Part shown: positions 1 through 21,237 of the stretch, one piece after another
Numbering within the stretch: the stretch's first letter is position 1
How the letters are laid out: the number at the start of each line of letters is the position of its first letter
From: Spinacia oleracea
Taxonomy: Eukaryota; Streptophyta; Magnoliopsida; Caryophyllales; Amaranthaceae
Length of the DNA: 64,000 nucleotides
Reading direction: 5' to 3'
NCBI RefSeq assembly: GCF_020520425.1
Contig: NC_079488.1
Coordinates: forward strand, 29,627,247-29,691,246
Notes under the pieces: model-generated
Database searches by the model: none
What the model was told of the DNA's origin: nothing
The model's input: the letters and a program-made list of their open reading frames with translations, nothing else
Position numbers and translations under genes: made by a program

Positions 1-124
1 GAAAGGGCAGGTTCAGAAATGCAATCCCATATTGATGCAGAGGTTAGTCTTTGAACCCAAATTTCTATCATGTAGTTACGTTTCTAGCTTTATGACTCAC
101 TCTCATTTGTTGTTTGTGTATTAG

Positions 125-177
125 GTTGTCAAAGTCCTTAGAGATGTATACGATCTGACGAAGCCTTGCTTAAGAAG
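125..177 (+). pseudogene. Exon-like fragment of an unidentified gene
   Basis: An open 53-bp segment reading VVKVLRDVYDLTKPCLR is bordered by an acceptor-like TTAG and a donor-like GTTAGT. It recurs in the right arm at 21238-21290. I do not recognise the protein. It may belong to the same captured gene as the first exon at 22403-22552 on the other arm. Confidence 0.4.
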
Positions 178-709
178 GTTAGTTTAAGATTTATTATCCT
201 CGAGCTTTCACACTATTACATTGAAATGATAAGCTCACACCTCACACTTGAACCCATATCTGTGTTGCAAGTACTGGGGTCCAAGGAGCATACCTTGCAC
301 GAAGCTCACGACTGGTTCGACGGTCTTATGTACCATTTTATTCCAATGTGTTTCGATCTGTGAGGCTGTTTGTTAGGCTTTAGCAACATTATATTGAAGA
401 AGCGTGAGTAGCTGACATGCATTGTGGTTATAAGGCATAATGTCCCATAGGTATAGCTGACAAAAACATGATATGAGTTCTGTACCAAAATATTCTAACT
501 CGGGCTAGACTCATTGTTGTAGGATTTATAAAATCTGCATGTTTATATTTAATAAAAGGGATCTCAACTTAAAATTGTTAAATTGTTGTTTATTACCAAG
601 AAATTGCATAAGGCACATCATGATTAAGTGCTGGTAGTAGAGTAGCTATCTCGATTTCCGAGTTGTATTCTGCCTACCTTTAATTGTTAATAAGTTTAAA
701 AATATATTG

Positions 710-783
710 GTCAGGATAGCCTCAGTTGGTAGAGCAGAGAATAAATTTCCCTTGACTCGCCAATTCAATTCTGGTTCCTGATA
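710..783 (+). pseudogene. Relic of a plastid trnF(GAA)-like gene
   Basis: The segment opens GTCAGGATAGC and continues TCAGTTGGTAGAGCAGAG; it ends with a TTCAATTCTGGTTCCTGA stretch. Both ends match the plastid phenylalanine tRNA gene as I know it. The anticodon arm is scrambled and an extra C lies in the A box, so it cannot be a working tRNA. It is best read as old plastid DNA carried inside the Helitron. The reverse copy is at 20622-20695. Confidence 0.6.
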
Positions 784-1075
784 TGTTCATTTTGAGGACA
801 AACTTTTGCTATGATTCTGCTGATTTTGTAAAGTTTTGTGATTGATTTAGATTCTATAGATATCAAACTTGTATTTATTGATTGGGAAGTTTAGTTTGGT
901 TGTGATTGTGTATGTATGTGATCGCTGTGTCCGTATTGCTCGTTTAATTCCGATCTTTCCCACAGTATTGGATATGGTATTTCTGAGAGTATGATGGTTG
1001 GACATAATTTTCTCATTGTTTATTGGTGTTGATCGATTGATATTTTATGTTTGTAGTTTTACTTGAGATGACATC

Positions 1076-1455
1076 ATGGGTAAGGAAAAGATTCATATCA
1101 GTTTGGTGGTCATTGGCCATGTAGATTCTGGAAAGTCAACCGCCACTGATCACTTGATCTACAAGCTTGGAGGTATTGACAAGCATATGATCGAGAGATT
1201 TGAGAAAGAAGCTGCTGAGATGACCAAGAGGTCCTTCAAGTATGCTTGGGTTCTTGACAAACTAAAGGTTGAGCGTGAAGGTATTACCATTGATATTGCC
1301 TTGTGGAAGTTTGAGACCAACAAGTACTACTGTGATCGATGCCCCTGGACACATACTTTATCAAGAACATGATTACTGGTACCTCCCAGGCTGATTGTGT
1401 TATCCTCATTATTGAATCTACCACTGGAGGTTTTAAGGCTGTATCTCAAAGGATA
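1076..1455 (+). pseudogene. eEF1A (translation elongation factor 1-alpha) 5' fragment, broken
   Basis: The frame opens [20 protein letters not shown], the start of plant eEF1A with its P-loop GTPase motif (GHVDSGKS). It continues about 88 residues to FETNKYYC. A frameshift near 1335-1345 then disrupts the next G motif (DAPGH). Matching residues resume in another frame ([15 protein letters not shown]) and stop by about 1455. Compared with the right copy it lacks one codon in the VERE(R)GITID stretch. The roughly 450-residue family length and the tRNA-binding domains are missing. AT-rich sequence before the ATG, ending in a possible acceptor, may be the leader intron usual for eEF1A genes. Non-functional captured fragment. 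Confidence 0.85.
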
Positions 1456-1610
1456 TAGTCACGGGATGGATATCATGAGCCCAGTGCACAAAGTGTGTAA
1501 TGGCCACTCTAACACTAATGAATCTACTGACAAGCAGGTGCAGTTTGGACCCTTAAATGTAAAGTTGACATATATGGTCTCAATTCAATTGACATACGTC
1601 TGATTTGCAG

Positions 1611-2026
1611 GATAAGGAAGTAAGTCTATTCCAGCCTGCTAGCGAATTTTTACCCATGATCAATGAGGTGGGTTTTTCCTCATTCTTGAGTTTTCCTGTC
1701 ACATGGGTGAACATGTTATAGAATCTGCAACTAATGTTAGTCGTCCATGGTTTCAGGTTTTAGAACCCTTGTCCACAAGACTAAAGGTATTAAAGGCGTG
1801 AATGTTGAGATCTACAAGTTCTTTTCATCTGTACATTACCGTAATGTTGATGAGAAGGTGGGTAAATTACAGTAGTTTTTTTAAAGCTTCAAATAATTCA
1901 GTAGTTGTGATAGTATCTTACTGTAACTGCTTTGTAATTTGACTGCAGAATTGGCCTACTATTGCTCAGCTTGTTCATCAAGTTCTTAAAAGTTTCTCTC
2001 GCTTACGTTTAACTCACGGGTGTAAG
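1611..2026 (+). pseudogene. Three captured exons of an unidentified gene (left copy, frameshifted)
   Basis: Exon-like blocks at 1611-1667, 1757-1857 and 1949-2026 are bordered by AG acceptors and GT donors. The middle block has lost one T of a T-run, which shifts its frame into a stop. The right-arm copy keeps 79 codons open across the same three blocks. The encoded piece includes [16 protein letters not shown] and NWPTIAQLVHQVL. I do not recognise the family. Confidence 0.5.
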
Positions 2027-2532
2027 GTACTACCATCTATTCTCAGTCTTCGGATGTTTATGGGAACAATTAATTTGAATGTTCGGAGCGACAGTATATC
2101 AAGTATTGTTATGCGTCTAGCTGTGTGGTTTTATCACGTTTAATGGGTTTTGGCCTATTGTTTGATTTGCGAGGCAACTTCAATTCTTGTGGGATGAGTG
2201 ATAAATTGGCCATGTTCATTTCAAAGAAAGGGCAGGTTCAGAAATGCAATCCCATATTGATGCAGAGGAAATTCCAATGACTTTCTGCATGGTCTTTTCC
2301 CAAGTTAATTTCAACTCTTTAATCAACAATAGCAATGTAGCCATTGTTGTCAATAAATACGGAACTCTCTGGTGGTAGGACTTGCAAGAGTTATCACTCT
2401 CTAGACTTCTCATGCTCGCACTGTACACCCTTAGATAATTTTCTACCTTAAGAAATCCATTGACCTTGTTCTTGTCTCTTCTCGTATGTTAAATTATCTT
2501 AAGTTTGATTCCTAAATTAAATCTTCTTGCAG

Positions 2533-2658
2533 ATTGTATGCTACCACTATCAGATTGGGCCAGTACAGGAAGAGTTTAAAATCCCAGTTACCCCTGAGGA
2601 GTATACTCGAAATAATCTTAAGTTTTCTCTTGTTGACGTGGTTTACAAATGGGCAAAG
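2533..2658 (+). pseudogene. Exon of a SKI2/MTR4-like DExH-box RNA helicase (captured)
   Basis: An AG acceptor and a GT donor border an open 42-codon block containing PVTPEEYTRNNLKFSLVDVV followed by YKWAK. This resembles the C-terminal (DSHCT) region of SKI2-type exosome helicases, where an EEY...NLKF...LVEVVYEWAKG block occurs. The identification is from memory of the family and is tentative. The exon lies in a 645-bp stretch (2256-2900) absent from the right arm, so only the left copy carries it. Confidence 0.4.
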
Positions 2659-3723
2659 GTATACATTTTTTTGCTGGACCAACTTCTGTCAGAATCGACA
2701 ACTTTTGGGGAAGATATTGAAAGATCTTGTAGAATTTTGCCGGGACGATAAAGTTGGTCCCATAGGTAATTCCTCATATCCTGGTATCTGATGTTGGAAT
2801 GTTGTCCCATACTTGAGTCTTTTCATGTGTGTGTATATTGTGTATTATATCTGATAAATTCTTCCTTGGTTAGTTATTTGAGAGGAGCATTTATGAGTAT
2901 GTATTGTGCAAACTATACTGTTTTTGTTTTTGTTTCCACGTATAGAAATATTTGATGCTCTTATAAATTACGATTTATGGAGTGTTTTCCTGTACTATAT
3001 TAGGCTACTAGATAATTTCACTTGAAAAGTTAGGAGATAAATTAACGATTCTGAATAACTCTGTAGAATATTCAGGAGATAACGTAAATGATACTCCGTA
3101 TCATTTCCCCAATTTGCATGTTTATACTGGTGCTAAAGTAGGCATATCAACTCATTTTTTAAAATTCAAGCCTTCACTCATCTCTGGTCTTGACTTTGTT
3201 ATTTAGCCTTCTGTCCTATACAGAGACGGTTGTGTATATGTGTTTCGGAGCATCCACTGCCTTGTATATTTCTGTAGTTGATATGGTGGAGGTTATATGA
3301 GAAATGTAATTTTGGACTCCGCTAAAAACTGGTTGAAAAGTATGGTTGCTGCGTTTTCTTGGTGTTCTTGTGAATTAGTTCCATGCTTATTCACGAGAAG
3401 TCTTATAAAAAGAAAATTTCAGTCACCAAGTCACCATTTGAAATTTTGTTGTCGGTGTGTGGATGAATATAAAATGTTAGTCCATAAAGATTCTTCCGGG
3501 AATATAGTTGGATTTTCGGGAGTGCCTTTTGATGTTAAGGTTGGATCTTACTCAATTTAGGTTTTCTTCTCTACTTTACGTTCTTTTGGCTATTGTCTTT
3601 AGGAATTATGTATAAAACTGAAAAGTCCTTCGTAATTCCCTGACCTTATCCGTCTGATTCTTCTTAATTCGTCTGATTATTATGAGTAATCACCTGAATT
3701 CAGATTCTGTTATCTCATATGCA

Positions 3724-3975
3724 GAGGGCTTGAAAAGTTATCCTCGATATAGTTTTGCATCTAAGCTAAAGATGCAAAGGATGCAGGAAATGGAGCAGGT
3801 TGCTGGTGGTCAAGGTCTGCCCACTTACAGGAACACTATCAATAAACTTATGGCAATGCAGCAGCTATGGATGAATAAGCCTAATATGGGCAACAACACT
3901 AATTTGCTTTTCAATAATAAACGCTCGACAAATGGGCAGGCAGCAGCTACCTTAGCATTGACCAACTACCAGGGG
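3724..3975 (+). pseudogene. SEUSS-like transcriptional co-regulator fragment (left copy)
   Basis: An open block follows an acceptor-like ATATGCAG. It reads SKLKMQRMQEMEQVAGGQGL, then PTYRNTINKLMAMQ, and ends QAAATLALTNYQ. This is the C-terminal conserved region of SEUSS/SEUSS-like adaptor proteins, which partner LEUNIG in repressing floral genes. A spacer in the block differs from typical SEUSS, and no LIM-binding domain is present. It is a captured exon piece, not a gene. The reverse copy is at 18077-18325. Confidence 0.7.
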
Positions 3976-4069
3976 AATATATTTTGCTGGAGTGGAAAAT
4001 GTTTAATGTCCGATGCATGATACTATGTTCATTGTCAAGTCTTATTCCTGAAAAATTTAATTTAGTCAG

Positions 4070-4397
4070 GCATCTATGCTTTGGAGGAAAGAAGTTACGG
4101 AAATGGCAGCAGACTACCCTGATGTTGAGCTCTCACATATGTATATTGATAATGCAGCAATGCAACTTATTCGTGATCCCAAACAGGGCATATTCACCTC
4201 CCCAGCCCAAAGTCAACAAACATTTAAACTATTTTCTTTCTTGAGAACTAACGTTGGTCTTTTTTACAAAAATGTGTCCGCTAATTTACTTGTGCAGTTT
4301 GACACTATATTAACCAACAGCATTTTTGGTGATATATTATCTGACGAGGCTTCTATGGTTAGTGGGAGTATTGGTATGCTTCCTTCTGCAAGCATCG
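4070..4397 (+). pseudogene. 3-isopropylmalate dehydrogenase fragment (left copy)
   Basis: Exon a (4070-4186) encodes [20 protein letters not shown] and continues to the [12 protein letters not shown] block. After an intron of about 110 bp, exon b (4298 to about 4397) encodes [20 protein letters not shown] and [12 protein letters not shown]. These are the substrate- and metal-binding segments of isopropylmalate dehydrogenase of leucine biosynthesis. The asparagine and aspartates of the NIFGD...LSDEAS motif are visible (here NSIFGD). N-terminal and C-terminal parts are missing. It sits directly upstream of the Helitron 3' hairpin. Confidence 0.85.
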
Positions 4398-4918
4398 GTC
4401 ATCATTCTAATAAAATTGAGCTGGTCAATCTGGTCTTAGCTGGGTATCACAATTTTGGATTAATCCCGGGAGAACATTGATTAAACTTGATCCACATCTA
4501 TCCAAGTTATTTATGATGTAGGACAACTTAAGTTTGAGTATATCTTTCCAATTTCACTGATGATCTCCTTGAAGTTGCCATTTTAATGTGATGTAGGACA
4601 CCTTAAGTTTGAGTGTATCTTGCAGCTTATGATCGCCAAAGATCTTGCATCACAATTTAGCAGTCCGTTAATTAATACACGTTCATTACGCTTTATTCTT
4701 GTATCTCCCTTCACAAACGTCAACCATAATGATGTAGTTTCATGAGATTATGTGCGACCTTAGCTCGACCACATGCTACAATCTGGATTTATAACTTAGA
4801 TCGGGTCAGTTTTTATTGGAAATTACAAATCAGAACAAAAAATAAATGTCATTTCCTTAGTTTGTATCGTGTTTGATTTAGGAGGCCAAAATTCATCAGT
4901 TTTTCCGGTGGACATACG

Positions 4919-4946
4919 CGCGCGATAGCGCGCGGTTCGATCCTAG
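4919..4946 (+). other. Helitron 3' terminal hairpin and CTAG
   Basis: CGCGCG ATAG CGCGCG forms a perfect stem-loop and is followed within about a dozen bases by CTAG, then T. This is the expected Helitron 3' end structure. The mirrored copy is at 17105-17135. Confidence 0.7.
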
Positions 4947-4992
4947 TTACTACAAAAATCAAATTGTTTATTGTTCAATATTTTTATTTTAA

Positions 4993-6302
4993 CGTTTAAA
5001 CAATACACAGAGTGATTATATTCTGGCTGAAATTTCATACAATCAGTTTATTTTGATTTGGTATTTTGGGTTAATTCCTAGAATTGTGGGATGTCAATTA
5101 CAATGGGAAAGTTCTTTTCATATCCTTTTCTAGATAAAATAAAGAAGGAATACATAACAGTTGTCTAAGGAAATTATTCTCTATAGTAAAGGATTATAGA
5201 ACGGTTATATAAGGTAATAACACGATTTTAGTTTTTTTCCCTCACGCACGCATCCCGTGCATATAAGACTATTATCTTAGAATGGAGGAGAGAGAATTAT
5301 GTGTTTTATAAGATCAAGATTCGTATTAGTCCGACCATATGGAGTTATTTGATTGTATTTGGGAAGTTAAACATCACTTTCTTTTGCAATTTCTATGTTT
5401 TTCTTCATTTTTTAGGAACTGGATTATTGTTTTGTTGAGCGTATATGAATGTTGGAATTTTTATGGAAAGTTAAACTTACCTAGAGAGTCAGATAAACAA
5501 CTTTCTCCATCTTATGAAAAGTAGAACTTTAAATTAAAATTAGGCTAATTTAATTTAATAGTAACTAGGTTAATTTCTTCCCGTGACTAATTTAATCCAT
5601 TTAGTGACTATGTCTACTTTTACAAAAGGTCTTGCGCGCACAAGGTGTACAATAAATTTATTGTACACCAAGATAACTTTTATACAGTTTTTTGTAACTT
5701 TAACCTACTTTTTTGTAACTTTTATATTATAAAAATAAAAAGTTGATAGATAAACATTTTAAAGGGTTAAATGATTAATTTATACATTATTAGTGATTTT
5801 GAAGAAATAATTTTGATTCAAATGAAAAAAAATTATCATTAAAAAATAGATAACTTTTACATATATAAGTGTAACTTTTAAGTATTTTGAGTCAACTTTT
5901 ACTCTGGTGTACGATATTTATTGTACACCCATTGTAAATAAGAATTTGTGCTACGTCTCTTTACTCCATCTTACTACTCCACTTAATAAGTGGCCTTTTT
6001 TTAACTACTCCACTTAATAAGTGGCCACTTAATTGAGTAGAGTAGTAAAAGGCCACTATTTATAATAAGGAATTGAACTACTGTTTTTGTATCTTGCTCA
6101 TTGCATCGCCATGTTAAATAAGGAATTGAACTAGCGTGTTGGTATCTTGCTCAATGTATCGCCCGCTACTTTGTTGTTGAGGGAGTGTATTTTTGTTCAA
6201 TTAAAGTAGGCCAAATTGTCAATTCCAAAAAAAAAAAAAACAAAAAAGTTAGGCCAAACTAATTACAAATTAGGATGGTATCATGTGATGCCTACAAAGT
6301 GT
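4993..6302 (+). repeat. Direct-repeat block B1 upstream of the BURP gene
   Basis: This 1.3-kb block is repeated in the same orientation at 14043-15379 with few differences. It holds no gene. It contains short palindromes (a self-complementary GTGTACAATAAATTTATTG stretch at 5645-5668 and a related one at 5905-5930) and two copies of CTCCACTTAATAAGTGG. A poly(A) run ends the block. It stops about 48 bp before the TATA box at 6350, so it supplies the distal upstream region of the BURP gene. Confidence 0.85.
5645..5934. repeat. Possible MITE-like palindrome pair
   Basis: Two related palindromic motifs (GTGTACAAT...ATTGTACAC) lie about 260 bp apart and bound an AT-rich stretch. The arrangement could be the ends of a small inverted-repeat element, but I cannot define a target duplication. 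The same pair is present in block B2 at about 14700-14990. Confidence 0.3.
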
Positions 6303-6349
6303 GATGGATGAAAGACATGTTTAATACGAAACTCACTCATGTACACCAT

Positions 6350-6357
6350 TATAAATA
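6350..6357 (+). promoter_or_regulatory. TATA box of the BURP gene
   Basis: TATAAATA, followed by a CA-rich leader-like stretch (caccaccaccaccctc), lies about 101 bp upstream of the BURP ATG once the copia element is removed. Transcription would be expected to begin near 6380-6390, upstream of the retrotransposon. Confidence 0.55.
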
Positions 6358-6437
6358 GCGGCCTTTTACTCTCAACAAATTAAACACCACTTTTACACCA
6401 CCACCACCCTCTAGCGTCCAACCTTATTTTTCATAAT

Positions 6438-6599
6438 TGTTAAGATATGTTAAGATATTAGATATTATTCTGTGAATATTCTGTAGAGTCCTAACTATGG
6501 TGAGTTACCTAATGTGTACCTAGGGTTTAGGTAACTGAGTTGTACTATATATACGTATGTTATTAATGAGAATGATACGAGATTACACAATATTTGACA
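6438..6599 (+). repeat. 5' LTR of copia element
   Basis: 162 bp, starting TGTTAAGATATG and ending ATATTTGACA. It contains a tandem TTAAGATATG/TTAAGATATT motif at its start and a TATA-like ACTATATATACG near 6544-6555. It reads the same as the 3' LTR. Confidence 0.95.
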
Positions 6600-6613
6600 T
6601 GGTATCATGAGCC
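6600..6613 (+). other. Primer-binding site (initiator tRNA-Met type)
   Basis: TGGTATCATGAGCC directly follows the 5' LTR. It resembles the usual plant copia site complementary to initiator methionine tRNA, with one inserted base. Confidence 0.75.
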
Positions 6614-6740
6614 TAGGTTAAAAACCCTAGATTTTTTTTCCGCAAGAAATTTGAGAGAGTGTAGCCGAGTATTGAGAACAGCGACTTTCTTCGCTTGTTG
6701 AGTATTGAGATTAGGAGTTAACAATTCCTTAAGTATCACC

Positions 6741-9700
6741 ATGAGTTCCGATGAGGAGGCACCACCAAAGGTCATCGCCGCCGCCGTCGACCTAGACTAC
6801 TATCTCGGGTCAGGCGACGGCCCCGGTATTGTTATCACCCCTGTGAAACTGAGAGGAGCATCGAACTACGATGAATGGGCCAAAGCCGTTCGTCGCTCGA
6901 TGATTTCAAAATTCAAATTTGGTTTTCTTGATGGGTCTGTGAAGGAGCCCATTACGGACGAGACGAAGATGAAACATTGGATTGCGGTCAATTCGATGGT
7001 GGTGTCTTGGATCACAAACACCATTGACGAGAGTTTGCGTTCGAATCTGGAGGACTTTGATATTGCTCACGAGTTGTGGAGTCATTTGAGGACGCGGTAC
7101 TGCGTCGTGTCGGGCACCAGGGTCTGCCATATTAAGATGGCTCTGAGTGGTTGCAAGCAGGGCACGTCTGAGGGCGTCATGGAGTACTATGGCCGCTTGT
7201 CGAAGGTATGGAAGGAGTACGTACAGTATGCACGAGTTCCCAGGTGTGTATGTGCGGGTTGTACGTGTAATATAGCGAAGCAGGTGGGGGACATTCACGA
7301 TGAAGATCGTCTGCACTATTTCCTAATTGGCCTGGATGATCACTATGAAGCCATTCGTGCACAACTGTTAGCACGATCGCCGTTGCCAGGACTCGACGAG
7401 GCGTACCAGACGGTTATGAATACCGAGACCATGCGCGCCAAGGCTGCGAGAGGTCCGGAGAGTGTCATGGCGTTCAAGGTCGAGACTAAGGCTTGGTCGA
7501 GGTCGGGAGATGTTAGTGGCAGATTTTGTGGTCATTGCAATCGTGAGGGTCATGAGGAAGAAACTTGTTATCAGCTGATTGGATTTCCTGAATGGTGGGA
7601 TGAGAAGAAACGAGGTGGACGAGGGCATGGTCGAGGAGGCAGGACGTCGATTAGAGGAGGCAGAGTAGCTCGCGGGGCAGCGTCGTCGACCAGTGGTGTC
7701 GCTCGTGCCAATGCCGTGAGCAATGCCACAGGAGGGGCGACAACCACTGTGACGAGTGGAGACGGATCGCATGGTGCAGTGACGACAACCAATCATGAGC
7801 TTGTTGGGGTGACGAAGGAGCAAGTCCAGCAAATAGTTGACATCTTGTCACGACCTTCAACCAAGTTGCAAGGTAATCTTGATTTACGTTGGATTGTTGA
7901 CAGTGGGGCATCACGTCATGTGACGGGTGATATTTCAATCCTGAGAAATATCAAGACATCAAGAAATCAACAGGTTGTGTTGCCGGACGGTCAACCTGCA
8001 AATTCAAACCAATATGGTTCGGTGGTCTTGGAGGATGGTTTCGTGCTCGATAATGTTCTATTTGTGCCTAAATTGAACTGCAATTTAATTTCTGTAACTC
8101 AATTAAGTGACGAATTACATTGTGCTGCTCAATTTACTAACAAAATGTGTGTTCTTCAGGACCGCTCGACGAGGATGGTGATTGGCGTAGGTGATCGACA
8201 GGAAGGACTATATTTTTTCCGTGGGGCTCCAAAGGTTCGTGTGCTAGCAGTGGAGTGTGTGGTCGACTTGTGGCATCAACGGATGGGGCATCCGTCGGAA
8301 AAAGTGTTGCAGTTACTTCCTCATGTGAGTCATAAGATTAGGAAGAATAAAACAATTTGTGATGTATGTCCGCGGGCGAGACAATGTAGGGAGAGTTTTC
8401 CAGTTAGTGTTAGTCGTGCTAGTCGCACATTTGAATTGGTTCATCTTGATTTATGGGGACCCTACAAGACTCCCTCGTCTTGTGGGGCAAAGTATTTTTT
8501 TACCATTGTTGACGATTATTCTAGAGGTGTGTGGATTTATTTACTGAATAATAAAATGGAAGTTGCATCGACATTTCTTAATTTTGTTGCCATGATTAAG
8601 TGTCAGTTTAATAGATCCCTTCGGGTAGTACGCAGTGATAATGGTACTGAATTCAATTGCTTACAAAATTATTTTCGTCAACATGGGATTCTGTTTGAGT
8701 CGTCGTGTGTTGGGACGCCTCAACAAAATGGGAGAGTCGAGAGAAAACACCAACATATTTTGAATGTTGGGAGGGCGTTACGTTTTCAAGGAAATCTTCC
8801 AATAAAATTTTGGGGGGAATGTATTTTGGCCGCCTGTTACTTGATAAACCGTACACCTACCCCGATCCTTGACAATAAAACACCTTATGAGATGTTGTTT
8901 GGTAAACCACCATCGTATGTGCCTATCCGAGTGTTTGGGTGTCTGTGTTATGCATATAATCTCCGGTGTAAAGGGGATAAGTTTGAGTCTCGGAGTCGCC
9001 GATGTGTGTTTTTGGGTTATCCGTTTGGCAGGAAGGGATGGCAACTTTATGATCTAGAGACACATGAGTTCTTCGTCTCACGGGATGTCAAGTTTCATGA
9101 AGGGACGTTTCCTTTTGCAGATGAATCGGATGTGTTGCCACCGGTGCATGATGGTCATGGGGGGCTTGACCATTGGAGTTTGGATGAGAGTGGGACTACG
9201 GGTCCTGAGACCGTGTCGTCGCCTGCAGGTGATACTGCTGGGGTGTCGCCGCCTACAGGTGATACTGAGGGAGTGTTGTCGCTTCCGGGAGCTGATGAGG
9301 GGGTGTCATTGACCAGTGGTGACGACAGGGGAGTGTCGTCGCCTGTGAGGGAGGAACAACAACATGAAACACCTAGTCGAGTGGATTCAGACGTCGTCTC
9401 CTCACAGACAGGTGTAGAGGAAACGACGGGTAGTGACGAGAGTGAGACAAGGCAGTGTGTGGAGGATACGGAGTTAGGAAGGGGGAAGCGTGTGAAGTTT
9501 CCGTCGACAAAGCTGAAAGACTGTGTGATACATACAATACGGGAAAAATATAGTACTTCCGACAAAACACCTACGGCGTCATCACTCTCAGGTACTCCTT
9601 ATCCTATCACATATTTTGTTAATTATGAGCGTTTTTCGTCAAAGCACAGGCATTATATAGCAGCATTGCAAGAAGGGCAAGTTCCTAAGAGTTTTAAACA

Positions 9701-11216
9701 AGCGATGCAGCATGAGGGGTGGCGTCAGGCAATGGCCGCTGAAATCGACGCGTTGGAGGAACAGGGGACATGGACGTTGGAAAATTTACCGGAAGGGAAG
9801 AAAGCACTGGGGAGTAAATGGGTGTATACTGAGAAGCGTGATGAGGATGGGAATTTGTTGAGACTGAAGGCTCGATTGGTATGTTTAGGGAATCATCAGG
9901 AGGAAGGGTTGGATTATAATGAGACATTTGCTCCCGTCGCGAAGATGGCGACAGTTCGAACTTTCCTAGCTGTCGCAGCTGTCAAACAGTGGGACGTGCA
10001 TCAGATGGACGTCCATAATGCGTTCTTGCACGGTGACTTGGAGGAAGAGATCTATATGAAGATTCCTCCTGGATTCCAGAAGAATCACTCTGACAAAGTG
10101 TGTCGAATGAGAAAGTCGTTGTATGGGTTGAAACAAGCACCTAGATGTTGGTTCCAGAAGTTGTCGACGGCATTGACGCACTATGGATTTCGACAGTCGC
10201 TGTCCGATTATTCGCTCTTTACTCTGTCTAAAGGTACGTTGCAGCTGAGTGTGCTCATTTATGTGGACGACATGATTATCGCGGGCAATAACAAGTTTGC
10301 GCTTGAGAGTTTTAAGGCATACTTGAAGGAGTGTTTTAAAATGAAAGACCTCGGGGCTCTGAAGTACTTCCTTGGGTTAGAGGTGGCACGAAGTAGTCAA
10401 GGGTTCTATGTATGTCAGAGAAAATATGCCCTCGACATCATCTCAGAGGCCGGATTGTTGGGAGCAAAGCCTGTGGACTTTCCCATGGAACAGAATCATA
10501 GGTTGGCATTGGCAGACGGGCCAGACCTGTCGGACGGTGAGCAGTATAGGCGTCTGATCGGACGTCTGGTTTATTTGGCTGTCACGCGACCAGACGTTGC
10601 CTACTCTGTACATGTCCTATCTCAATTTATGAAAGCACCAAAGGAGGCACATTGGGAAGCAGCTTTGCGAGTAGTGAGATATTTGAAGAAGTGTCCGGGT
10701 CAAGGTATACTACTTCGGTCGGACAGTGCGTTGCAGTTGGAGGGGTGGTGCGACTCGGATTGGGCAGGGTGTCCAATGACGCGTCGGTCGGTGACTGGAT
10801 GGTTTGTGTCACTTGGTATGTCGCCAGTTTCTTGGAAGACCAAGAAACAGCATACTGTTTCTCGGTCGTCTGCTGAGGCAGAATATCGGTCGATGGCAGC
10901 TCTGACGTGTGAGTTGAAGTGGTTGAAACAACTACTACGCGACTTGGGGGTGACACACGACCAAGGCATGAGGATGTATTGCGACAGTCAGTCTGCGTTG
11001 CATATTGCACAGAATCCGGTGTTCCATGAAAGGACAAAACACATCGAGTCAGATTGTCATTTCATTCGAGATGCAATCAAGGAAGGGATCATCAGTCCGT
11101 CGTACGTGTCGACGAAGGTTCAGTTAGCAGATATCTTCACCAAAGCGTTGGGGAAGGCGCAATTTGAGTTTTTTTTGAACAAGATGGGCATTCGAGATCT
11201 ACATGCTCCACCTTGA
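6741..11216 (+). CDS. Ty1/copia gag-pol polyprotein, uninterrupted
   Basis: The frame is 1491 codons from the first ATG (6741, good context ACCATGA); it is open a little further upstream but without an earlier ATG. Order is gag, protease, integrase, reverse transcriptase, RNase H, which defines copia. Visible motifs: gag-type N terminus; CX2CX4HX4C zinc knuckle at residues 263-276; protease DSGA at 387-390; integrase HHCC zinc finger (H512, H517, C540, C543); catalytic D570, D633 and E667; RT with YVDD (about residue 1174); RNase H with CDSDWAG and SRSSAEAEY near 1335-1385; and a C-terminal ADIFTKAL. An RG-rich, glycine-rich stretch follows the zinc knuckle. No stops or frameshifts are seen, so it may be competent to transpose. 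Confidence 0.95.
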   Translation: MSSDEEAPPKVIAAAVDLDYYLGSGDGPGIVITPVKLRGASNYDEWAKAVRRSMISKFKFGFLDGSVKEPITDETKMKHWIAVNSMVVSWITNTIDESLRSNLEDFDIAHELWSHLRTRYCVVSGTRVCHIKMALSGCKQGTSEGVMEYYGRLSKVWKEYVQYARVPRCVCAGCTCNIAKQVGDIHDEDRLHYFLIGLDDHYEAIRAQLLARSPLPGLDEAYQTVMNTETMRAKAARGPESVMAFKVETKAWSRSGDVSGRFCGHCNREGHEEETCYQLIGFPEWWDEKKRGGRGHGRGGRTSIRGGRVARGAASSTSGVARANAVSNATGGATTTVTSGDGSHGAVTTTNHELVGVTKEQVQQIVDILSRPSTKLQGNLDLRWIVDSGASRHVTGDISILRNIKTSRNQQVVLPDGQPANSNQYGSVVLEDGFVLDNVLFVPKLNCNLISVTQLSDELHCAAQFTNKMCVLQDRSTRMVIGVGDRQEGLYFFRGAPKVRVLAVECVVDLWHQRMGHPSEKVLQLLPHVSHKIRKNKTICDVCPRARQCRESFPVSVSRASRTFELVHLDLWGPYKTPSSCGAKYFFTIVDDYSRGVWIYLLNNKMEVASTFLNFVAMIKCQFNRSLRVVRSDNGTEFNCLQNYFRQHGILFESSCVGTPQQNGRVERKHQHILNVGRALRFQGNLPIKFWGECILAACYLINRTPTPILDNKTPYEMLFGKPPSYVPIRVFGCLCYAYNLRCKGDKFESRSRRCVFLGYPFGRKGWQLYDLETHEFFVSRDVKFHEGTFPFADESDVLPPVHDGHGGLDHWSLDESGTTGPETVSSPAGDTAGVSPPTGDTEGVLSLPGADEGVSLTSGDDRGVSSPVREEQQHETPSRVDSDVVSSQTGVEETTGSDESETRQCVEDTELGRGKRVKFPSTKLKDCVIHTIREKYSTSDKTPTASSLSGTPYPITYFVNYERFSSKHRHYIAALQEGQVPKSFKQAMQHEGWRQAMAAEIDALEEQGTWTLENLPEGKKALGSKWVYTEKRDEDGNLLRLKARLVCLGNHQEEGLDYNETFAPVAKMATVRTFLAVAAVKQWDVHQMDVHNAFLHGDLEEEIYMKIPPGFQKNHSDKVCRMRKSLYGLKQAPRCWFQKLSTALTHYGFRQSLSDYSLFTLSKGTLQLSVLIYVDDMIIAGNNKFALESFKAYLKECFKMKDLGALKYFLGLEVARSSQGFYVCQRKYALDIISEAGLLGAKPVDFPMEQNHRLALADGPDLSDGEQYRRLIGRLVYLAVTRPDVAYSVHVLSQFMKAPKEAHWEAALRVVRYLKKCPGQGILLRSDSALQLEGWCDSDWAGCPMTRRSVTGWFVSLGMSPVSWKTKKQHTVSRSSAEAEYRSMAALTCELKWLKQLLRDLGVTHDQGMRMYCDSQSALHIAQNPVFHERTKHIESDCHFIRDAIKEGIISPSYVSTKVQLADIFTKALGKAQFEFFLNKMGIRDLHAPP

Positions 11217-11223
11217 GGGGGGA
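11214..11223 (+). other. Polypurine tract of copia element
   Basis: GAGGGGGGA lies immediately before the 3' LTR, right at the gag-pol stop codon. It is the expected primer site for plus-strand DNA synthesis. Confidence 0.8.
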
Positions 11224-11385
11224 TGTTAAGATATGTTAAGATATTAGATATTATTCTGTGAATATTCTGTAGAGTCCTAACTATGGTGAGTTACCTAATG
11301 TGTACCTAGGGTTTAGGTAACTGAGTTGTACTATATATACGTATGTTATTAATGAGAATGATACGAGATTACACAATATTTGACA
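11224..11385 (+). repeat. 3' LTR of copia element
   Basis: 162 bp, reading identical to the 5' LTR. It ends 19 bp before the BURP start codon, so its own TATA-like motif (about 11330-11341) could drive transcription into that gene. Confidence 0.95.
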
Positions 11386-11404
11386 ATAATTAATTTCAAT
11401 CAAC

Positions 11405-13311
11405 ATGAGTTATTACAAGCCATCTTTTGTGCTACTACTAGTTACATTTATCTCTATTGTAAGTTTTCTTCAATCTACTCTTTATTTACTTTGCAATTAG
11501 GATATTAATTATTAATAATAACGATCTTATTTTAAAAAGATTTCATAACTTAATATGATTTGATATTTATACTTATATAAATGCAACTTGTATAGATATA
11601 CCAAAATCAAAGACGACTTCAATTCTTTTACAACACAATATTACCCGATCAAAATGATTAATTACGTTTGATATTGATAATTATTTTACCTTTCAATCGT
11701 CTTTGTGATATACCAAAATTTAACTCGATGCATATCAAGAACTCGCCATGCTACCCCTAATCATATACATGTTATTTTATGCAATTTTTTCATGCTTTTT
11801 ATATTGGAAATTCTCTTATCTTTTCCTACTTAATTCAAATGTATGGCCCAAAAACACTTATCAAGAAGTCGTGAAGTTTAAGTTTTGACCAAGGTCCTCC
11901 TCCAAATTATACGTTCCATTTTAGAGAAATTGTATTAACTTACATACATTTTCGTTCAAGATTTGCAATTTGCAATTATGCTTTGGACTTTAAATTACTT
12001 TGCTACGTTACTATTTAATTACTTACCGCTATTTCTCATAACATATATTTATCATTTATCCGTTTGAATTTTCTTTTTGTAGCAGTTGACTTTCCCACTT
12101 TGCAGTGGAGCTCCGTCGTCACCTGAAGAAATATATTGGAAAACTAAAGTAGGCGATATCCCTATGCCAAAACCTTTGAAGGATAGCTTGCGTCTAGGTA
12201 AACTTTTGAATCAAATTAAACCTATCAAAGTCCAAAGTATCTGACAAAATAACTCATAATTTCACTTCTTGTTATCCTTTTTGTTTATGTACAAGTAGTA
12301 ATTACAAATAAATATTCTTATGAATAATATTGGTGTGATTTTTTTATACTTTATGAAATTTTGACTTTTCGATTTTTGAAATCACCTAAAAAAGGTTTTT
12401 TTGTAAAAATAAAATAAAAATTACTCTAGAATTTATTTCTCTACATCTAATTTTTAGTCAAACTAAACATAGACTATTATGTTCACTGTACTACAAACTC
12501 TTATTTTATTTCCTCTTTTGTAGGACCAAATGAAAGAGTTGTGCAACTCAACTCGAATTACAAACAGGATTTTGGTACACATGAAGCCCTGTTGTATGTT
12601 TGGGGAGGACATGTTGCAAAAACTCAAATTCCGCAAGATGGTCGAGTGATATATTTCAAAGATGATATATTGTCGAAAGTCGGAGTTAAAATGAAGTTGT
12701 ACTTCAAGAAAATCAATAATCAAGCCAAGTTTTTGCCGTTGCATGTTGCGAAAATCCTGCCTACTACATCGAACAAATTTCAAGTGATCCTAAATCTTCT
12801 TTTTGTGAATCCTAAATCCACTTTAGCTCAAGATATTGAGTTGATGATGAAAAAATGTGAAGAAAAAGGTGTCAAAGGTGAGATAAGGAATTGTGTTAAT
12901 TCATTGGAAGATATGGTTGACTATGTTACGTCAGCATTAAATTTTGGAAAAAATAAGTTGGTTGTGGCGTCCACGAAGGAGGATTATGGTATCCTTTTGG
13001 AATACACTATTCAAAAAGTACAACTATTAGGAAGTCACGTTGTGGTGTGTCATAAAATAAGGAATCCATTTGCTGTGTTTCTTTGTCATAGCATACAGAA
13101 TACTTATTTATACAATGTTTCTATGGTTCGCGCTAACGGGAAGCAAACGGAGGCATTTGCAATTTGTCATAAGGACACTTCTTTTTGGAATCCAAGACAT
13201 TATGCCTTTGAGTTTCTTAACACCAAGCCGGGTGGGAAGCCTATATGTCATTTTGTTTGTGCAGAAGCAATAGTTTGGTATAGGCTGCCAAAAAATAATG
13301 GCGAGGAATAA
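11405..13311 (+). CDS. BURP-domain protein, three exons
   Basis: Exons 11405-11458, 12083-12197 and 12524-13311 join in phase (957 bp, 318 residues). Donors are GTAAGT and GTAAAC; acceptors are TTTTTGTAG and CTTTTGTAG. Exon 1 encodes MSYYKPSFVLLLVTFISI, the signal-peptide core. Exon 2 holds the short conserved segment typical of BURP proteins (SPEEIYWKTK...PMPKPLKDS). Exon 3 holds the BURP domain with its spaced CH motifs: CH-X10-CH around 13042-13090, then CHKDTSFWNPRH and ICHFVCAEAIVWY. BURP proteins are plant-specific, secreted or cell-wall associated, with roles in seed, fruit and stress. I cannot assign the subfamily. The coding frame is intact, but a copia element separates the ATG from the TATA box. 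Confidence 0.85.
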
Positions 13312-13381
13312 GAAGTGTGTTTTAAGTATAAACACCAAGCTGGGTGAGAAGCATATGTGTCATTTTGTTTGTGTAGAAGCT
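13219..13381 (+). repeat. 51-bp duplication of BURP 3' coding sequence
   Basis: Bases 13219-13269, coding for the last CH motif, recur with several changes at 13331-13381, just past the stop codon. The second copy is outside the coding frame and looks like a small local duplication. Confidence 0.75.
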
Positions 13382-14042
13382 CTTCATATCATATAATAAA
13401 TATGAATTGTTTATGATCATGAAAGAAGAAAGGGATTTTTTTACCCATTCAAGAGACAAAAGATGGAAAATGAATAAATAAGATTAGCTCATAACTTTCA
13501 GTTCATTTGCAGACTTCATTATACCTTATGTAAAGTGATTAATAATTCAGTTATTACAAGCTTAAATTTTTCTGATTTTCACTTATTTTTTACATATCTA
13601 ATAATCGAAATTTGTAGCCCTATACTTAAGCTATTTAAATCTATATCATCCTCAACTTGTGTCATCAAAAGTTACTTGAACTAATCACAACTTATTGTAG
13701 TTGTATGTAATTAGAACTTGAATAACTTTTATCAGCATTGAATTCATTTGAGCTTAACAATAAATTAAAGAGCTAAAATTATATATGTTTGATGAGTGAA
13801 AGTAAGGCAGGAAAAACAACGCCTTGGTTGGTGTTATAATTATCGTTGTCTTCATTGCTAAATTATGAACAAACTTGATCATCAGAATACGTTTGATGAT
13901 ATGAATGTTGGAATTTTTATGAAAAGTTCAACTTACCTAGAGAGTCAGGTAAACAACTTTCTCCATTTTGTGGGAAGTAGAACTTTAAATTAAAATTAGG
14001 CAATGGTAAGCCCAATATTGAAAAGAGAATAAGCCTAATAGT
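13312..14042. other. AT-rich stretch downstream of BURP gene
   Basis: No gene is seen. It includes the likely 3' untranslated region. At 13897-14003 it has a diverged partial copy of block B (compare 5447-5547), so the B sequence occurs in part a third time here. Confidence 0.6.
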
Positions 14043-15379
14043 ATTTTAACGTTTAAACAATACACAGAGTGATTATATTCTGGCTGAAATTTCATACAAT
14101 CAGTTTATTTTGATTTGGTATTTTGGGTTAATTCCTAGAATTGTGGGATGTCAATTACAATGGGAAAGTTCTTTTCATATCCTTTTCTAGATAAAATAAA
14201 GAAGGAATACATAACAGTTGTCTAAGGAAATTATTCTCTATAATAAAGGATTATAGAACGGTTGTATAAGGTAATAACACGATTTTAGTTTTTTTTCCCT
14301 CACGCACGCATCGCGTGCATATAAGACTACTATCTTAGAATGGAGGAGAGAGAATTATGTGTTTTATAAGATCAAGATTCGTATTAGTCCAACCATAAGG
14401 AGTTATTTGATTGTATTTGGGAAGTTAAACATCACTTTCTTTTGCAATTTCTACGTTTTTCTTCATTTTTTAGGAACTGGATTATTGTTTTGTTGAGCAT
14501 ATATGAATGTTGGAATTTTTATGGAAAGTTAAACTTACCTAGAGAGTCAGATAAACAACTTTCTCCATCTTATGAAAAGTAGAACTTTAAATTAAAATTA
14601 GGCTAATTTAATTTAATAGTAACTAGGTTAATTTCTTCCCGTGACTAATTTAATCCATTTAGTGACTATGTCTACTTTTACAAAAGGTCTTGCGCGCACA
14701 AGTTGTACAATAAATTTATTTTACACCAAGATAACTTTTATATAGTTTTTTGTAACTTTAACCTACTTTTTTGTAACTTTTATATTATAAAAATAAAAAG
14801 TTGATAGATAAACATTTTAAAGGGTTAAATGATTAATTTATACATTATTAGTGATTTTGAAGAAATAATTTTGATTCAAATGAAAAAAAATTATCATTAA
14901 AAAATAGATAACTTTTACATATATAAATGTAACTTTTAAGTATTTTGAGTCAACTTTTACTCTGGTGTACAATATTTATTGTACACCCATTGTAAATAAG
15001 AATTTGTGCTACTTTTATATTAAAAGTAGACCGTCTCTTTACTCCATCTTACTACTCCACTTAATAAGTGGCCTTTTTTTTAACTACTCCACTTAATAAG
15101 TGGCCACTTAATTGAGTAGAGTAGTAAAAGGCCACTATTTATAATAAGGAATTAAACTACTGTTTTGGTATCTTGCTCAATGCATCAACATGTTAAATAA
15201 GGAATTGAACTAGCGTGTTGGTATCTTGCTCAATGTATCGCCAACTACTTTGTTGTTGAGGGAGTGCATTTTTGTTCAATTAAAGTAGGCCAAATTGTCA
15301 ATTCCAAAAAAAAAAAAAAAAAAAGTTAGGCCAAACTATTTACAAATTAGGATGGTATCATGTGATGCCTACAAAGTGT
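14043..15379 (+). repeat. Direct-repeat block B2
   Basis: Second copy of 4993-6302 in the same orientation, with scattered substitutions and a small insertion near 15015. At 15379 it changes abruptly to the inverted arm (a match to the reverse complement of 5148-5168). This marks a rearrangement joint between a direct and an inverted copy. Confidence 0.9.
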
Positions 15380-15796
15380 TATGTATTCCTCCTTTATATA
15401 TATATATACTATATAAAAAAGCCGCACAGCCCCTTCCTTTTTGCCGTAATTTTTGTTTCCATTTTTGTCCCTCCCCTTATATTCTGTGTTTTGTGTAAGA
15501 AATGAGAATAAATCATGTGATTTAAGGCAGGACCAATTGAGGCTAATTGCTTAAATGCTTAAAGGGGAGATATATAAAGCTAGCTTAAACAGACTGTAGT
15601 TTTAAGTGGGGCCACACGTAAATCTTAGCTAACAATTTGTCTAAAACCAATTTGGTTCTCTCTAATCAAACAAAAATATGGGGTTTATTTATTAATATTA
15701 TGAGAATTAAGACATGATGAAGTCCATGCACTTTGGAATTAGTATTAATCAATGGCCAGTTTTCGAGTCTTCATACCAACAATCAATATTTATTTA

Positions 15797-16354
15797 GGCA
15801 AATTTGCCAAAAAGGACCTTTTATAACTCAAATTTTGCGAGAAAGGACCTTATATAATTTTTTTTGTGAAAACACACCTTAAATTATTATTTTTTGCGAG
15901 AAAGGACCTAAGGGAAGTTTCCGGCATTGATTGAGCTTTTCCGGTCATTGATTTGCACGTGAGCAGCACGTGTGGCTTACGTTGGCTAAAGACATTGATT
16001 TTCCCGAGTCTTGAATTTTCAAACTTGACTTTATTTCGATTTTTTTTTTTCAACTTTAGGTTTTAAAGCTTAGAATTTTGGAGGAAAATTGGGCTGTGAT
16101 TAGCAAAATAAAGTCACACGTGCTTCTCACGTGCAAGTCAATGGCCGAAAAAGCTCAGTCAATGCCGGAAATTTACTTTTGGTTGTCTTTCGCAAAAAAA
16201 AATTACATTAAGGTGTGATTTCACAAAAAAAATATTATATAAGGTCCTTTCTCGCAAAAAAATTTACGTTAAGGTGTGATTTCACAAAAAAAATTATATA
16301 AGGTCCTTTCTCGCAAAATTTGGGTTATAAAAGGTCCTTTTTAACAAATTGGCC
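15797..16354. mobile_element. Non-autonomous MULE (Mutator-like) element
   Basis: The 558-bp element has long terminal inverted repeats. The left end reads GGCAAATTTGCCAAAAAGGA and the right end, reversed, reads GGCCAATTTGTTAAAAAGGA; the similarity extends over about 100 bp or more. It is flanked by a perfect 9-bp duplication ATTTATTTA (15788-15796 and 16355-16363), the Mutator signature. Inside, motifs such as TTTCTCGCAAAA and AAGGTGTGATTTCACAAAAA are repeated. There is no transposase, so it would need one in trans. Confidence 0.85.
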
Positions 16355-16558
16355 ATTTATTTATTACCCACTTTAAATTTGTTATATATTAAGCTTATGC
16401 CTTTCAAATTTTGTTCACTAATTAGAGTTTTGCATTCGTGTTTTGGTTTAATGTTCATTTTTTGGAGGCAAGTTAAATAAACGGAGGTTAGTATTTTTTA
16501 CTTTTTCTCTTATAGCCCAAAAATAATGTTGAATGCCATATACTTAGCTTATTCCGGA

Positions 16559-16656
16559 TATTAATTTTTGAAACTTGTTTGATGCAAACATTAATTTTTT
16601 TTTTCACTATTAATTTTCGAAACTTGTTTGATGCAAACATTAATTTTTTTTTTCAC
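16559..16656 (+). repeat. 49-bp tandem duplication
   Basis: Two adjacent copies of a unit containing GAAACTTGTTTGATGCAAAC followed by a T-run lie near the 3' end of the short Helitron-like element. Confidence 0.8.
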
Positions 16657-17573
16657 CATTGCAGGTAAACTCTGTCATCAAAGTTATCGGAGCACTTTAA
16701 AAGATACCAGTAGTTCAATTAAGCTTTTGAAACAAGTTCTACCCTTGAGCTTGATTGTTAACCTTGGATCAACCTTTTAGATACTCTTTTTTCTCGGAAA
16801 TATGTAAATACTCTGTACACGAAAGTATTACGTTTGTGCAGAAAAATATCAATATTATCCAAAAAAATATTTATGCTTAAACCACGTGCAAAGCACGTGC
16901 ACTGCACCTAGTTTTATCTAGAAAAGGATATGAAAAGAACTTTCCCATTGTAATTGACATCCCACAATTCTAGGAATTAACCCAAAATACCAAATCAAAA
17001 TAAACTGATTGTATGAAATTTCAGCCAGAATATAATCACTCTGTGTATTGTTTAAACGTTAAAATACAAATATTGAACAATAAACAATTTGATTTTTTTA
17101 GTAACTAGGATCGAACCGCGCGCTATCGCGCGCGTATGTCCACCGGAAAACCTGATGAATTTTGGCCTCCTAAATCAAACACGATACAAACTAAGGAAAT
17201 GACATTTATTTTTTGTTCTGATTTGTAATTTCCAATAAAAACTGACCCGATCTAAGTTATAAATCCAGATTGTAGCACGTGGTCGAGCTAAGGTCGCACA
17301 TAATCTCATGAAACTACATCATTATGGTTGACGTTTGTGAAGGGAGATACAAGAATAAAGCGTAATGAACGTGTATTAATTAACGGACTGCTAAATTGTG
17401 ATGCAAGATCTTTGGCGATCATAAGCTGCAAGATACACTCAAACTTAAGGTGTCCTACATCACATTAAAATGGCAACTTCAAGGAGATCATCAGTGAAAT
17501 TGGAAAGATATACTCAAACTTAAGTTGTCCTACATCATAAATAACTTGGATAGATGTGGATCAAGTTTAATCA

Positions 17574-17989
<416 letters not shown>

Positions 17990-18076
17990 TTAAATTTTTC
18001 AGGAATAAGACTTGACAATGAACATAGTATCATGCATCGGACATTAAACATTTTCCACTCCAGCAAAATATATTCC

Positions 18077-18325
18077 CCTGGTAGTTGGTCAATGCTAAGG
18101 TAGCTGCTGCCTGCCCATTTGTCGAGCGTTTATTATTGAAAAGCAAATTAGTGTTGTTGCCCATATTAGGCTTATTCATCCATAGCTGCTGCATTGCCAT
18201 AAATTTATTGATAGTGTTCCTGTAAGTGGGCAGACCTTGACCACCAGCAACCTGCTCCATTTCCTGCATCCTTTGCATCTGTAGCTTAGAAGCAGAACTA
18301 TATCGAGGATAACTTTTCAAGCCCT
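18077..18325 (-). pseudogene. SEUSS-like co-regulator fragment (right copy)
   Basis: Reverse copy of 3724-3975, with only a few residue differences (ASKLQMQRMQEMEQ here). The same conserved block and no other SEUSS domain are present. Confidence 0.7.
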
Positions 18326-19374
18326 CTGCATATGAGATAACAGAATCTGAATTCAGGTGATTACTCATAATAATCAGACGAATCAAGAAGAATCAGACGG
18401 ACAAGGTCAGGGAAATTACGAAGGATTTTTCAGTTTTATACAAAATTCCTAAAGACAACAGCCAAAAGAACGTAAAGTAGAGAAGAAAACCTAAATTGAG
18501 TAAGATCCAACCTTAACATCAAAAGGCACTCCCGAAAATCCAACTATATTCCCGGAAGAATCTTTATGGACTAACATTTTATATTCATCCACACACCGAC
18601 AACAAAATTTAAAATGGTGACTTGGTGACTGAAATTTTCTTTTTATAAAACTTCTCGTGAATAAGCATGGAACTAATTCACAGGAACACCAAGAAAACGC
18701 AGCAACCATACTTTTCAACCAGTTTTTAGCGGAGTGCAAAATTATATTTCTCATATAACCTCCACCATATCAACTACAGAAATATACAAGGCAGTGGAAG
18801 CTCTGAAACACATATACACAACCGTCTTTGTATAGGACGGAAGGCTAAATAACAAAGTCAAGACCAGAGATGAGTGAAGGCTTGAATTTTAAAAAATGAG
18901 TTGATATGCCTACTTTAGCACCAGTATAAACATGCAAATTGGGGAAATGATACGGAGTATCATTTACGTTATCTCCTGAATATTCTACAGAGTTATTCAG
19001 AATCGTTAATTTATCTTCTAACTTTTCAAGTGAAATTATCTAGTAGCCTAATATAGTACAGGAAAACACTCCATAAATCGTAATTTATAAGAGCATCAAA
19101 TAATTCTATACGTGGAAACAAAAACAAAAACAGTATAGTTTGCACAATACATGGGATTGCATTTCTGAACCTGCCCTTTCTTTGAAATGAACATGGCCAA
19201 TTTATCACTCATCCCACAAGAAGTTGCCTCGCAAATCAAACAATAGGCCAAAACCCATTAAACGTGATAAAACCACACAGCTAGACGCATAACAATACTT
19301 GATATACTGTCGCTCCGAACATTCAAATTAATTGTTCCTATAAACATCCGAAGACTGAGAATAGATGGTAGTAC

Positions 19375-19791
19375 CTTACACCCGTGAGTTATACGTAAGC
19401 GAGGGAAACTTTTAAGAACTTGATGAACAAGCTGAGCAATAGTAGGCCAATTCTGCAGTCAAATTACAAAGCAGATACAGTAAGATACTATCACAACTAC
19501 TAAATTATTTGAAGCTTTAAAAAAACTACTGTAATTTACCCACCTTCTCATTAACATTACGGTAATGTACAGATGAAAAGAACTTGTAGATCTCAACATT
19601 CACGCCTTTAATACCTTTAGTCTTGTCGACAAGGGTTCTAAAAACCTGAAACCATGGACGACTAACATTAGTTGCAGATTCTATAACATGTTCACCCATG
19701 TGACAGGAAAACTCAAGAATGAGGAAAAACCCACCTCATCGATCATGGGTAAAAATTCGGTAGCAGGCTGGAATAGACTTACTTCCTTATC
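19375..19791 (-). pseudogene. Three captured exons of an unidentified gene (right copy, open frame)
   Basis: Blocks 19735-19791, 19544-19645 and 19375-19452 (57, 102 and 78 bp) are each bordered by AG and GT. All are in phase 0 and join into 79 open codons. The left-arm copy has a 1-base deletion in the middle block. Segments include [33 protein letters not shown] and NWPTIAQLVHQVLKSFPRL. I do not recognise the protein. The preserved frame suggests the source gene is real. Confidence 0.55.
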
Positions 19792-19964
19792 CTGCAAATC
19801 AGACGTATGTCAATTGAATTGAGACCATATATGTCAACTTTACATTTAAGGGTCCAAACTGCACCTACTTGTCAGTAGATTCATTAGTGTTAGAGTGGCC
19901 ATTACACACTTTGTGCACTGGGCTCATGATATCCATCCCGTGACTATATCCTTTGAGATACAGC

Positions 19965-20329
19965 CTTAAAACCTCCAGTGGTAGATTCAATAATGAGGAT
20001 AACACAATCAGCCTGGGAGGTACCAGTAATCATGTTCTTGATAAAGTATGTGTCCAGGGGCATCGATCACAGTAGTACTTGTTGGTCTCAAACTTCCACA
20101 AGGCAATATCAATGGTAATACCGCGTTCACGCTCAACGTTTAGTTTGTCAAGAACCCAAGCATACTTGAAGGACCTCTTGGTCATCTCAGCAGCTTCTTT
20201 CTCAAATCTCTCAATCATATGCTTGTCAATACCTCCAAGCTTGTAGATCAAGTGATCAGTGGCGGTTGACTTTCCAGAATCTACATGGCCAATGACCACC
20301 AAACTGATATGAATCTTTTCCTTACCCAT
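19965..20329 (-). pseudogene. eEF1A 5' fragment, broken (right copy)
   Basis: Reverse copy of 1076-1455. It keeps the [10 protein letters not shown] codons that the left copy has lost one of, but has the same frameshift after KYYC. That break therefore predates the duplication. The P-loop GHVDSGKS is visible. It cannot make eEF1A. Confidence 0.85.
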
Positions 20330-20621
20330 GATTTCATCTCAAGTAAAACTACAAACATAAAATATCAATCGATCATCACCAATAAACAATGAGAAAATTA
20401 TGTCCAACCATCATACTCTCAGAAATACCATATCCAAAACTGTGGGAAAGATCGGAATTAAACGAGCAATACGGACACAGCGATCACATACATACACAAT
20501 CACAACCAAACTAAACTTCCCAATCAATAAATACAAGTTTGATATCTATAGAATCTAAATCAATCACAAAACTTTACAAAATCAGCAGAATCATAGCGAA
20601 AGTTTGTCCTCAAAATGAACA

Positions 20622-20695
20622 TATCAGGAACCAGAATTGAACTGGCGAGTCAAGGGAAATTTATTCTCTGCTCTACCAACTGAGGCTATCCTGAC
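20622..20695 (-). pseudogene. Relic of a plastid trnF(GAA)-like gene (right copy)
   Basis: Reverse copy of 710-783, with the same scrambled anticodon arm. Not a functional tRNA. Confidence 0.6.
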
Positions 20696-21237
20696 CAATA
20701 TATTTTTAAACTTATTAACAATTAAAGGTAGGTAGAATACAACTCGGAAATCGAGATAGCTACTCTACTACCAGCACTTAATCATGATGTGTCTTATGCA
20801 ATTTCTCAGTAATAAACAACAATTTAACAATTTTATGTTGAGATCCATTTTATTAAATATAAACATGCAGATTGTATAAATCCTACAACAATGAGTCTAG
20901 CCCGAGTTAGAATATTTTGGTACAGAACTCATATCATGTTTTTGTCAGCTATACCTGTGGGACATTATGCCTTATCACCACAATCCATGTCAGCTACTCA
21001 CGCTTCTTCAATATAATGTTGCTAAAGCCTAACAAACAGCCTCACAGATCGAAACACATTGGAATAAAATGGTACATAAGACCGTCGAACCAGTCGTGAG
21101 CTTCGTGCAAGGTATGCTCCTCGGACCCCAGTACTTGCAACACAGATATGGGTTCAAGTGTGGGGTGTGAGCTTAGCATTTCAATGTAATAGTGGGAAAG
21201 CTCGAGGATAATAAATCTTAAACTAACCTTCTTAAGC

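Follow-up and report, generated by a model that had tools for sequence, protein, structure and literature searches.

Copia insertions beside genes are common, and it is usually difficult to tell the effect of a gene-adjacent insertion from that of other sequence differences. The element reported here most resembles the plant Ty1/copia retrotransposons of the short-LTR Ale/Retrofit type, with which it shares the domain order, the 5-bp target duplication, the short LTR and the single frame, along with recent insertions, some of them beside genes; the Ale label is tentative, resting on LTR size and integrase wording. Copia lineage names are given as used in PMC6317226 and PMC6696364, and one carrot study describes Ale copies as mostly genic, with all 78 Alex1 and all 99 Alex3 positions polymorphic (PMC9324142). 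In blood orange, the LTR retrotransposon Tcs1 likewise lies before a gene, Ruby, with its 3' LTR positioned as promoter; there, transcription start and regulation of the gene are attributed to the 3' LTR (PMC5056178), whereas the spinach BURP case is known from sequence alone and includes an intact twin of the gene. The spinach protein has the full domain and the CHX10CHX25CHX25CH motif in common with other BURP-domain proteins (PF03181; 8SY2/8SY3); in this subfamily, 7 of the 9 exon-3 copies examined are broken. As judged from their listings, literature searches turned up no account of this insertion. The kind of event is well known, and the added value is a sequence-matched empty twin, with a date and an assay.

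The window, that is, the whole 64,000-nucleotide stretch of spinach DNA analysed (C2:29627247-29691246), contains a three-exon BURP gene whose 5' leader is occupied by a copia element in the sense orientation; a DNA search of the 894,210,420-base genome with exon 3 of this gene gave 15 matches, among them a twin locus. The features are as follows.

1..6437, + strand: duplicated block, left part, extending left beyond the window, its twin block being about 46 kb farther upstream
6350..6357, + strand: native TATAAATA of the BURP gene, shared with the twin (L010) and with a C5 paralog (L015)
6433..6437, + strand: left target duplication ATAAT, single in the twin
6438..11385, + strand: complete Ty1/copia element, 4948 bp
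6438..6599, + strand: 5' LTR, 162 bp
6600..6613, + strand: primer-binding site, presumably of initiator-Met type
6741..11216, + strand: open gag-pol, 1491 codons, with CCHC knuckle at 7527 and protease VDSGA at 7896
within gag-pol, + strand: pol motifs, namely integrase HHCC at 8274 and rve, RT YVDD at 10260, RNase H DSDWAG at 10752
11215..11223, + strand: polypurine tract
11224..11385, + strand: 3' LTR, same as the 5' LTR, with TATATATA at 11332
11386..11390, + strand: right target duplication ATAAT
11386..19483, + strand: duplicated block, right part, 12 mismatches in 8098
11405..11458, + strand: BURP exon 1 (coding), splice sites by eye, GTAAGT donor at 11459
12083..12197, + strand: BURP exon 2, splice sites by eye
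12524..13311, + strand: BURP exon 3, with motif and stop

By its domain order, TG...CA LTR ends, primer-binding site, polypurine tract, 5-bp duplication and motifs, the element belongs to the Ty1/copia superfamily. Exact comparison found the two LTRs (TGTTAA...TTGACA) identical at 162/162 sites, the gag-pol frame runs from the ATG at 6741 to the stop at 11216 with no internal stop, and ATAAT stands on both sides of the element; the identical LTRs, unbroken gag-pol and perfect target duplication of the initial annotation were thus borne out, as was its placing of a sense element between the TATA box at 6350 and the ATG at 11405. Its coordinates (6433..11404) covered a real element and too much sequence, the remainder being target duplication and leader. 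TGGTATCATGAGCC at 6600 adjoins the 5' LTR and fits a primer-binding site, which we take to be that for the initiator-Met tRNA, and the purine tract GAGGGGGGA adjoins the 3' LTR. Pfam, applied to gag-pol in three overlapping pieces, gave in order copia-type gag, pol beta-barrel, GAG-pre-integrase, integrase core, SH3-like and RVT_2, so that integrase precedes RT in a single pol (rve in the piece 8091-9590, RVT_2 in the piece 9441-11216). Regular expressions found the knuckle, protease, HHCC, YVDD and RNase H motifs in the frame, the knuckle depending on the regular expression because Pfam reported no zf-CCHC for the gag piece. The rve core scored above cut-off and its D, D and E can be read, with 33 residues, not 35, separating the second D from the E; the sole match to a D..D35E expression lies outside the integrase core, at 9231. 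The LTR contains a 9-bp inverted repeat, which was discounted because 173 of 2000 shuffles held one equally long. No relative of the RT piece was found in viral_contigs, no exact match to the first 40 LTR bases in genome_contigs (prokaryotes), and no Rfam match at gathering score in positions 1-24000 of the window.

The BURP gene encodes 318 aa, and its ATG lies 19 bp past the end of the element, the distance originally annotated. PF03181 matches at 4.5e-59 (200.1 bits against a cut-off of 27), the motif is present with all four CH pairs, the protein start appears hydrophobic by eye, and 8sy2 is the only solved structure matched (1.6e-26); genome_contigs (prokaryotes) held no relative. With the element removed, TATAAATA stands 102 bp from the ATG, and the native leader, counted from 31 bp past the TATA box, would be 71 nt long with 2 G and no ATG. 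Just past the stop, a 50-bp duplicate of the 3' coding end (13219-13268 / 13331-13380) is present, also in the twin and in C5.

Elsewhere in the window, the gene sits between the arms of a large inverted duplication (1-5139 / 16912-21403; 1.3-1.5% substitutions), and upstream of it are fragments of an elongation-factor gene (PF00009; 1076-1339) and of an isocitrate/isopropylmalate dehydrogenase gene (PF00180; 4076-4480). The distal promoter region (4985-6309) has a direct copy at 14042-15386, 1.8% different, which was rejected as a second BURP promoter: it ends about 41 bp before the TATA box, and no BURP exon follows it in the window. Further elements are a second copia at 49056-51854, with an open frame that stops within RT, a gypsy-type element spread over two frames (29204-34759), and a tnp2 transposase (37259-38395), presumably CACTA-type.

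The twin BURP locus lies 51 kb upstream, and its exon 3 is identical to that of the window at 787/788 sites. Because its leader matches the joined insertion flanks at 196/196 bases, with one ATAAT, the empty state is observed rather than assumed; a complete element, its target duplication and an exact empty site are thus all in hand, presence and absence being seen between two twin copies of one genome. The leaders of three other copies (L015 and L016 on C5, L018 on C2) also cross the insertion point without the element. Between window and twin, 2 of the 2010 bp at 11391-13400 differ, one at 12410 in intron 2 and one at 12772 in exon 3 (A/Asn in the window, G/Asp in the twin); the promoter and leader at 6310-6437 are identical, and the twin keeps the open frame of 318 codons. 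Across the duplicated blocks, whose left edge lies outside the sequence compared, we counted 12 mismatches over 20,176 bp and 12 over 8098 bp (24/28,274). A separate 16.9-kb head-to-tail tandem duplication, distinct from the twin block, lies upstream of the window (C2:29592540-29609445 / 29609448-29626356; L026-L029), its copies being 99.85% identical (20 mismatches) and abutting within 3 bp.

The twin would be an allele instead of a paralog if an assembly error had joined two haplotypes in tandem to give the two blocks. The window and the 60 kb preceding it are free of Ns. For a spinach inbred-line assembly with six pseudomolecules, the absence of a heterozygous k-mer peak and polishing with short reads are described (PMC8668906), and confusion of a haplotype with a duplication becomes less likely if, as we infer, the window stems from that assembly. 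The insertion postdates the split of the blocks in either case, because one copy is occupied and the other empty; this holds for paralogs as for alleles before an unequal exchange, and the order of events, block split and then insertion, is well supported.

Dating from the LTRs was too weak, as 0 differences in 162 sites are compatible (95% bound, rate 7e-9) with any age up to 1.32 My; the duplicated flanks were therefore used; LTRs and open frame together give a bound of 0.46-0.67 My, depending on the assumed indel rate. The blocks differ by 0.085% (95% 0.054-0.126%), which at the substitution rates of 7e-9 and 1.3e-8 per site and year corresponds to 61 kyr (39-90) and 33 kyr (21-49), respectively; the part inside the window, with 13 mismatches, yields 64 kyr (34-109) and 34 kyr (18-59). 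An age below about 0.1 My is thus probable for the insertion, unless the blocks stayed similar through conversion. Gene conversion or short-read polishing could make the block date too young, and conversion from the empty copy could also erase an insertion. The young and structurally intact element of the initial annotation is upheld on this footing, its age being bounded by the duplicated flanks and not by 162-bp LTRs alone.

We consider it probable, at roughly 0.8, that the twin blocks separated first and that a copia element then inserted into the leader of one BURP twin. On this account, a short-LTR Ty1/copia element, one of a very similar genomic group, would have reached the 5' leader of that twin through integrase-mediated retrotransposition of the ordinary kind, the native promoter of the occupied copy would be cut off from a translatable BURP message, and BURP protein from that copy would need a transcript begun in the 3' LTR. 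An insertion older than the twin comparison implies, with the element later lost from the twin or the flanks homogenised by conversion, strikes us as very improbable: near-identical blocks make gene conversion possible in principle, and the LTR identity by itself allows the age given above, but LTR-LTR recombination leaves a solo LTR behind, of which the twin leader has none, three distant paralogs are equally empty, and the element's own LTRs and frame are undamaged. Hardest to credit is that the element is spliced out as a long leader intron, leaving BURP under its native promoter. The 5' LTR does hold a donor-like GTGAGT hexamer at 6500, but this hexamer is unspecific (4 in 5161 bp, where about 1.3 are expected; two are the LTR copies), the ATGs at 6447 and 6497 lie ahead of it, and there is no AG between 11385 and the BURP ATG.

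Under insertion after the split, a transcript from the native TATA box would meet eight ATGs before gag (6447, 6497, 6512, 6557, 6566, 6572, 6599 and 6607); because these and the 1491-codon frame precede BURP, the native promoter's BURP message would be untranslatable here, and translation of BURP from it in the window copy is unlikely. Young LTR elements are usually silenced, which counts against the idea that the 3' LTR now drives this BURP copy as its promoter and that the twins are regulated differently as a result. That outcome we regard as doubtful, if the best placed of the alternatives. It would be favoured by the sense orientation and by the LTR TATA box TATATATA, 73 bp before the BURP ATG, and all 10 starts assumed at 28-37 bp past this box give leaders of 36-45 nt without an ATG; the LTR start site is itself an assumption, however, under which R plus U5 would measure only 19-24 bp, and leaders from slightly upstream starts would include the ATGs 11343, 11352 and 11358, which open frames that close at 11393, short of BURP. 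A precedent is Tcs1, whose 3' LTR is described as starting and regulating Ruby in blood orange (PMC5056178). On the sense strand of 6300-11405, TATA[AT]A[AT] has 3 matches, the native one and one per LTR; TATA boxes alone were set aside as weak evidence, since 48 of the 1133 ATGs in the window have one 60-130 bp upstream. Loss of the plant's BURP function does not follow in any case, because the twin keeps promoter, leader and open frame, and the initial statement that BURP expression would be lost was too strong, applying at most to this copy. The insertion was probably tolerated, since the twin gene can supply what BURP function remains.

Most of the BURP subfamily copies examined are broken. 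Besides window and twin, seven exon-3 copies were judged, a set that excludes the shorter matches and L020, a distant copy on C4; all seven have an early stop in the window's frame, between residues 23 and 86, leaving the window gene and its twin as the only open copies among nine. Both C5 copies have lost the GT of the intron-1 donor. Exon-3 dN/dS of the window against the seven paralogs was 1.31, 1.18, 1.07, 1.35, 1.0, 0.43 and 1.18, the value of 0.43 (C5b) being given no weight because its dS is near 2 and comes from a frameshifted alignment; C5a against C2_3385 gave 0.65. With L020 as outgroup, only 67% identical, the polarised changes on the window lineage were 8 nonsynonymous and 0 synonymous; a further 4 sites (2 of each type) could not be polarised, and 2 (one of each) fall on the paralog side. 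Neither dN/dS nor the polarised changes in exon 3 gave a sign that purifying selection acts on this BURP lineage, which weakens claims about phenotype. In the C5 paralog L015, a TTA-flanked insert of some 215 bp (73-287; by eye), presumably MITE-like, lies in the same leader past the same TATA box, and its right end also occurs, by eye, in the C2:3.38 Mb copy (L018, about 150-194). The BURP leader has thus apparently been hit by insertions more than once.

Close relatives of the element were sought by an LTR search, in which 40 of 522 first-look candidates were scored best-first, a sample biased to the best matches. Among these best 40, 43 matches were listed, 27 of them at 100% over 162 bp including the window's two. 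Twenty stretches were compared: 15 are simple LTR pairs, 3 (L051-L053) have a single LTR with internal sequence, and 2 (L035, L036) have 3-4 LTRs. In the simple pairs, the LTRs show no difference in 13 and one difference in 2, and the 5-bp flanks match in 14/15, L039 being the exception; 13/15 align with the window copy over their full inside (4622-4627 bases) with 6-48 mismatches and at most 2 gaps, while L043 and L047 align over 2612 and 2003 bases only. As the best LTR matches were chosen, a young group exists, but family age and size are not given by this sample. L035 and L036 (C6:97.67-97.69 Mb) stand in opposite orientation; their neighbouring LTRs are separated by 3 bp, and in each such pair one LTR matches along just 153 bp. 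Both loci look like head-to-tail arrays of the copia group. A scan of 1-kb flanks covered 20 open frames at 11 of the 15 simple-pair loci (all except L041, L042, L047 and L048) and at L036, the latter showing RT and gag. Non-transposon domains flank 5/11 of these loci (P450 at L045, actin at L044, dioxygenase on both sides of L043, G-patch at L050, and KIB1-4 just under cut-off at L037); RVT_3 was found at L038, and no domain at the other 5.

An occupied and an empty gene 51 kb apart in one genome make a clean natural experiment, in which the effect of a leader insertion is directly measurable; ordinary RNA reads could distinguish the twins, because position 12772 (A or G) lies in coding exon 3. 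A fuller scenario, in which the twin duplication arose less than about 0.1 My ago and was soon followed by split regulation, one copy on its native promoter and the other re-wired to a retrotransposon LTR, seems to us somewhat less probable still than capture by the 3' LTR as such. If true, it would show duplicate genes at the very beginning of their divergence, brought about by a promoter swap.
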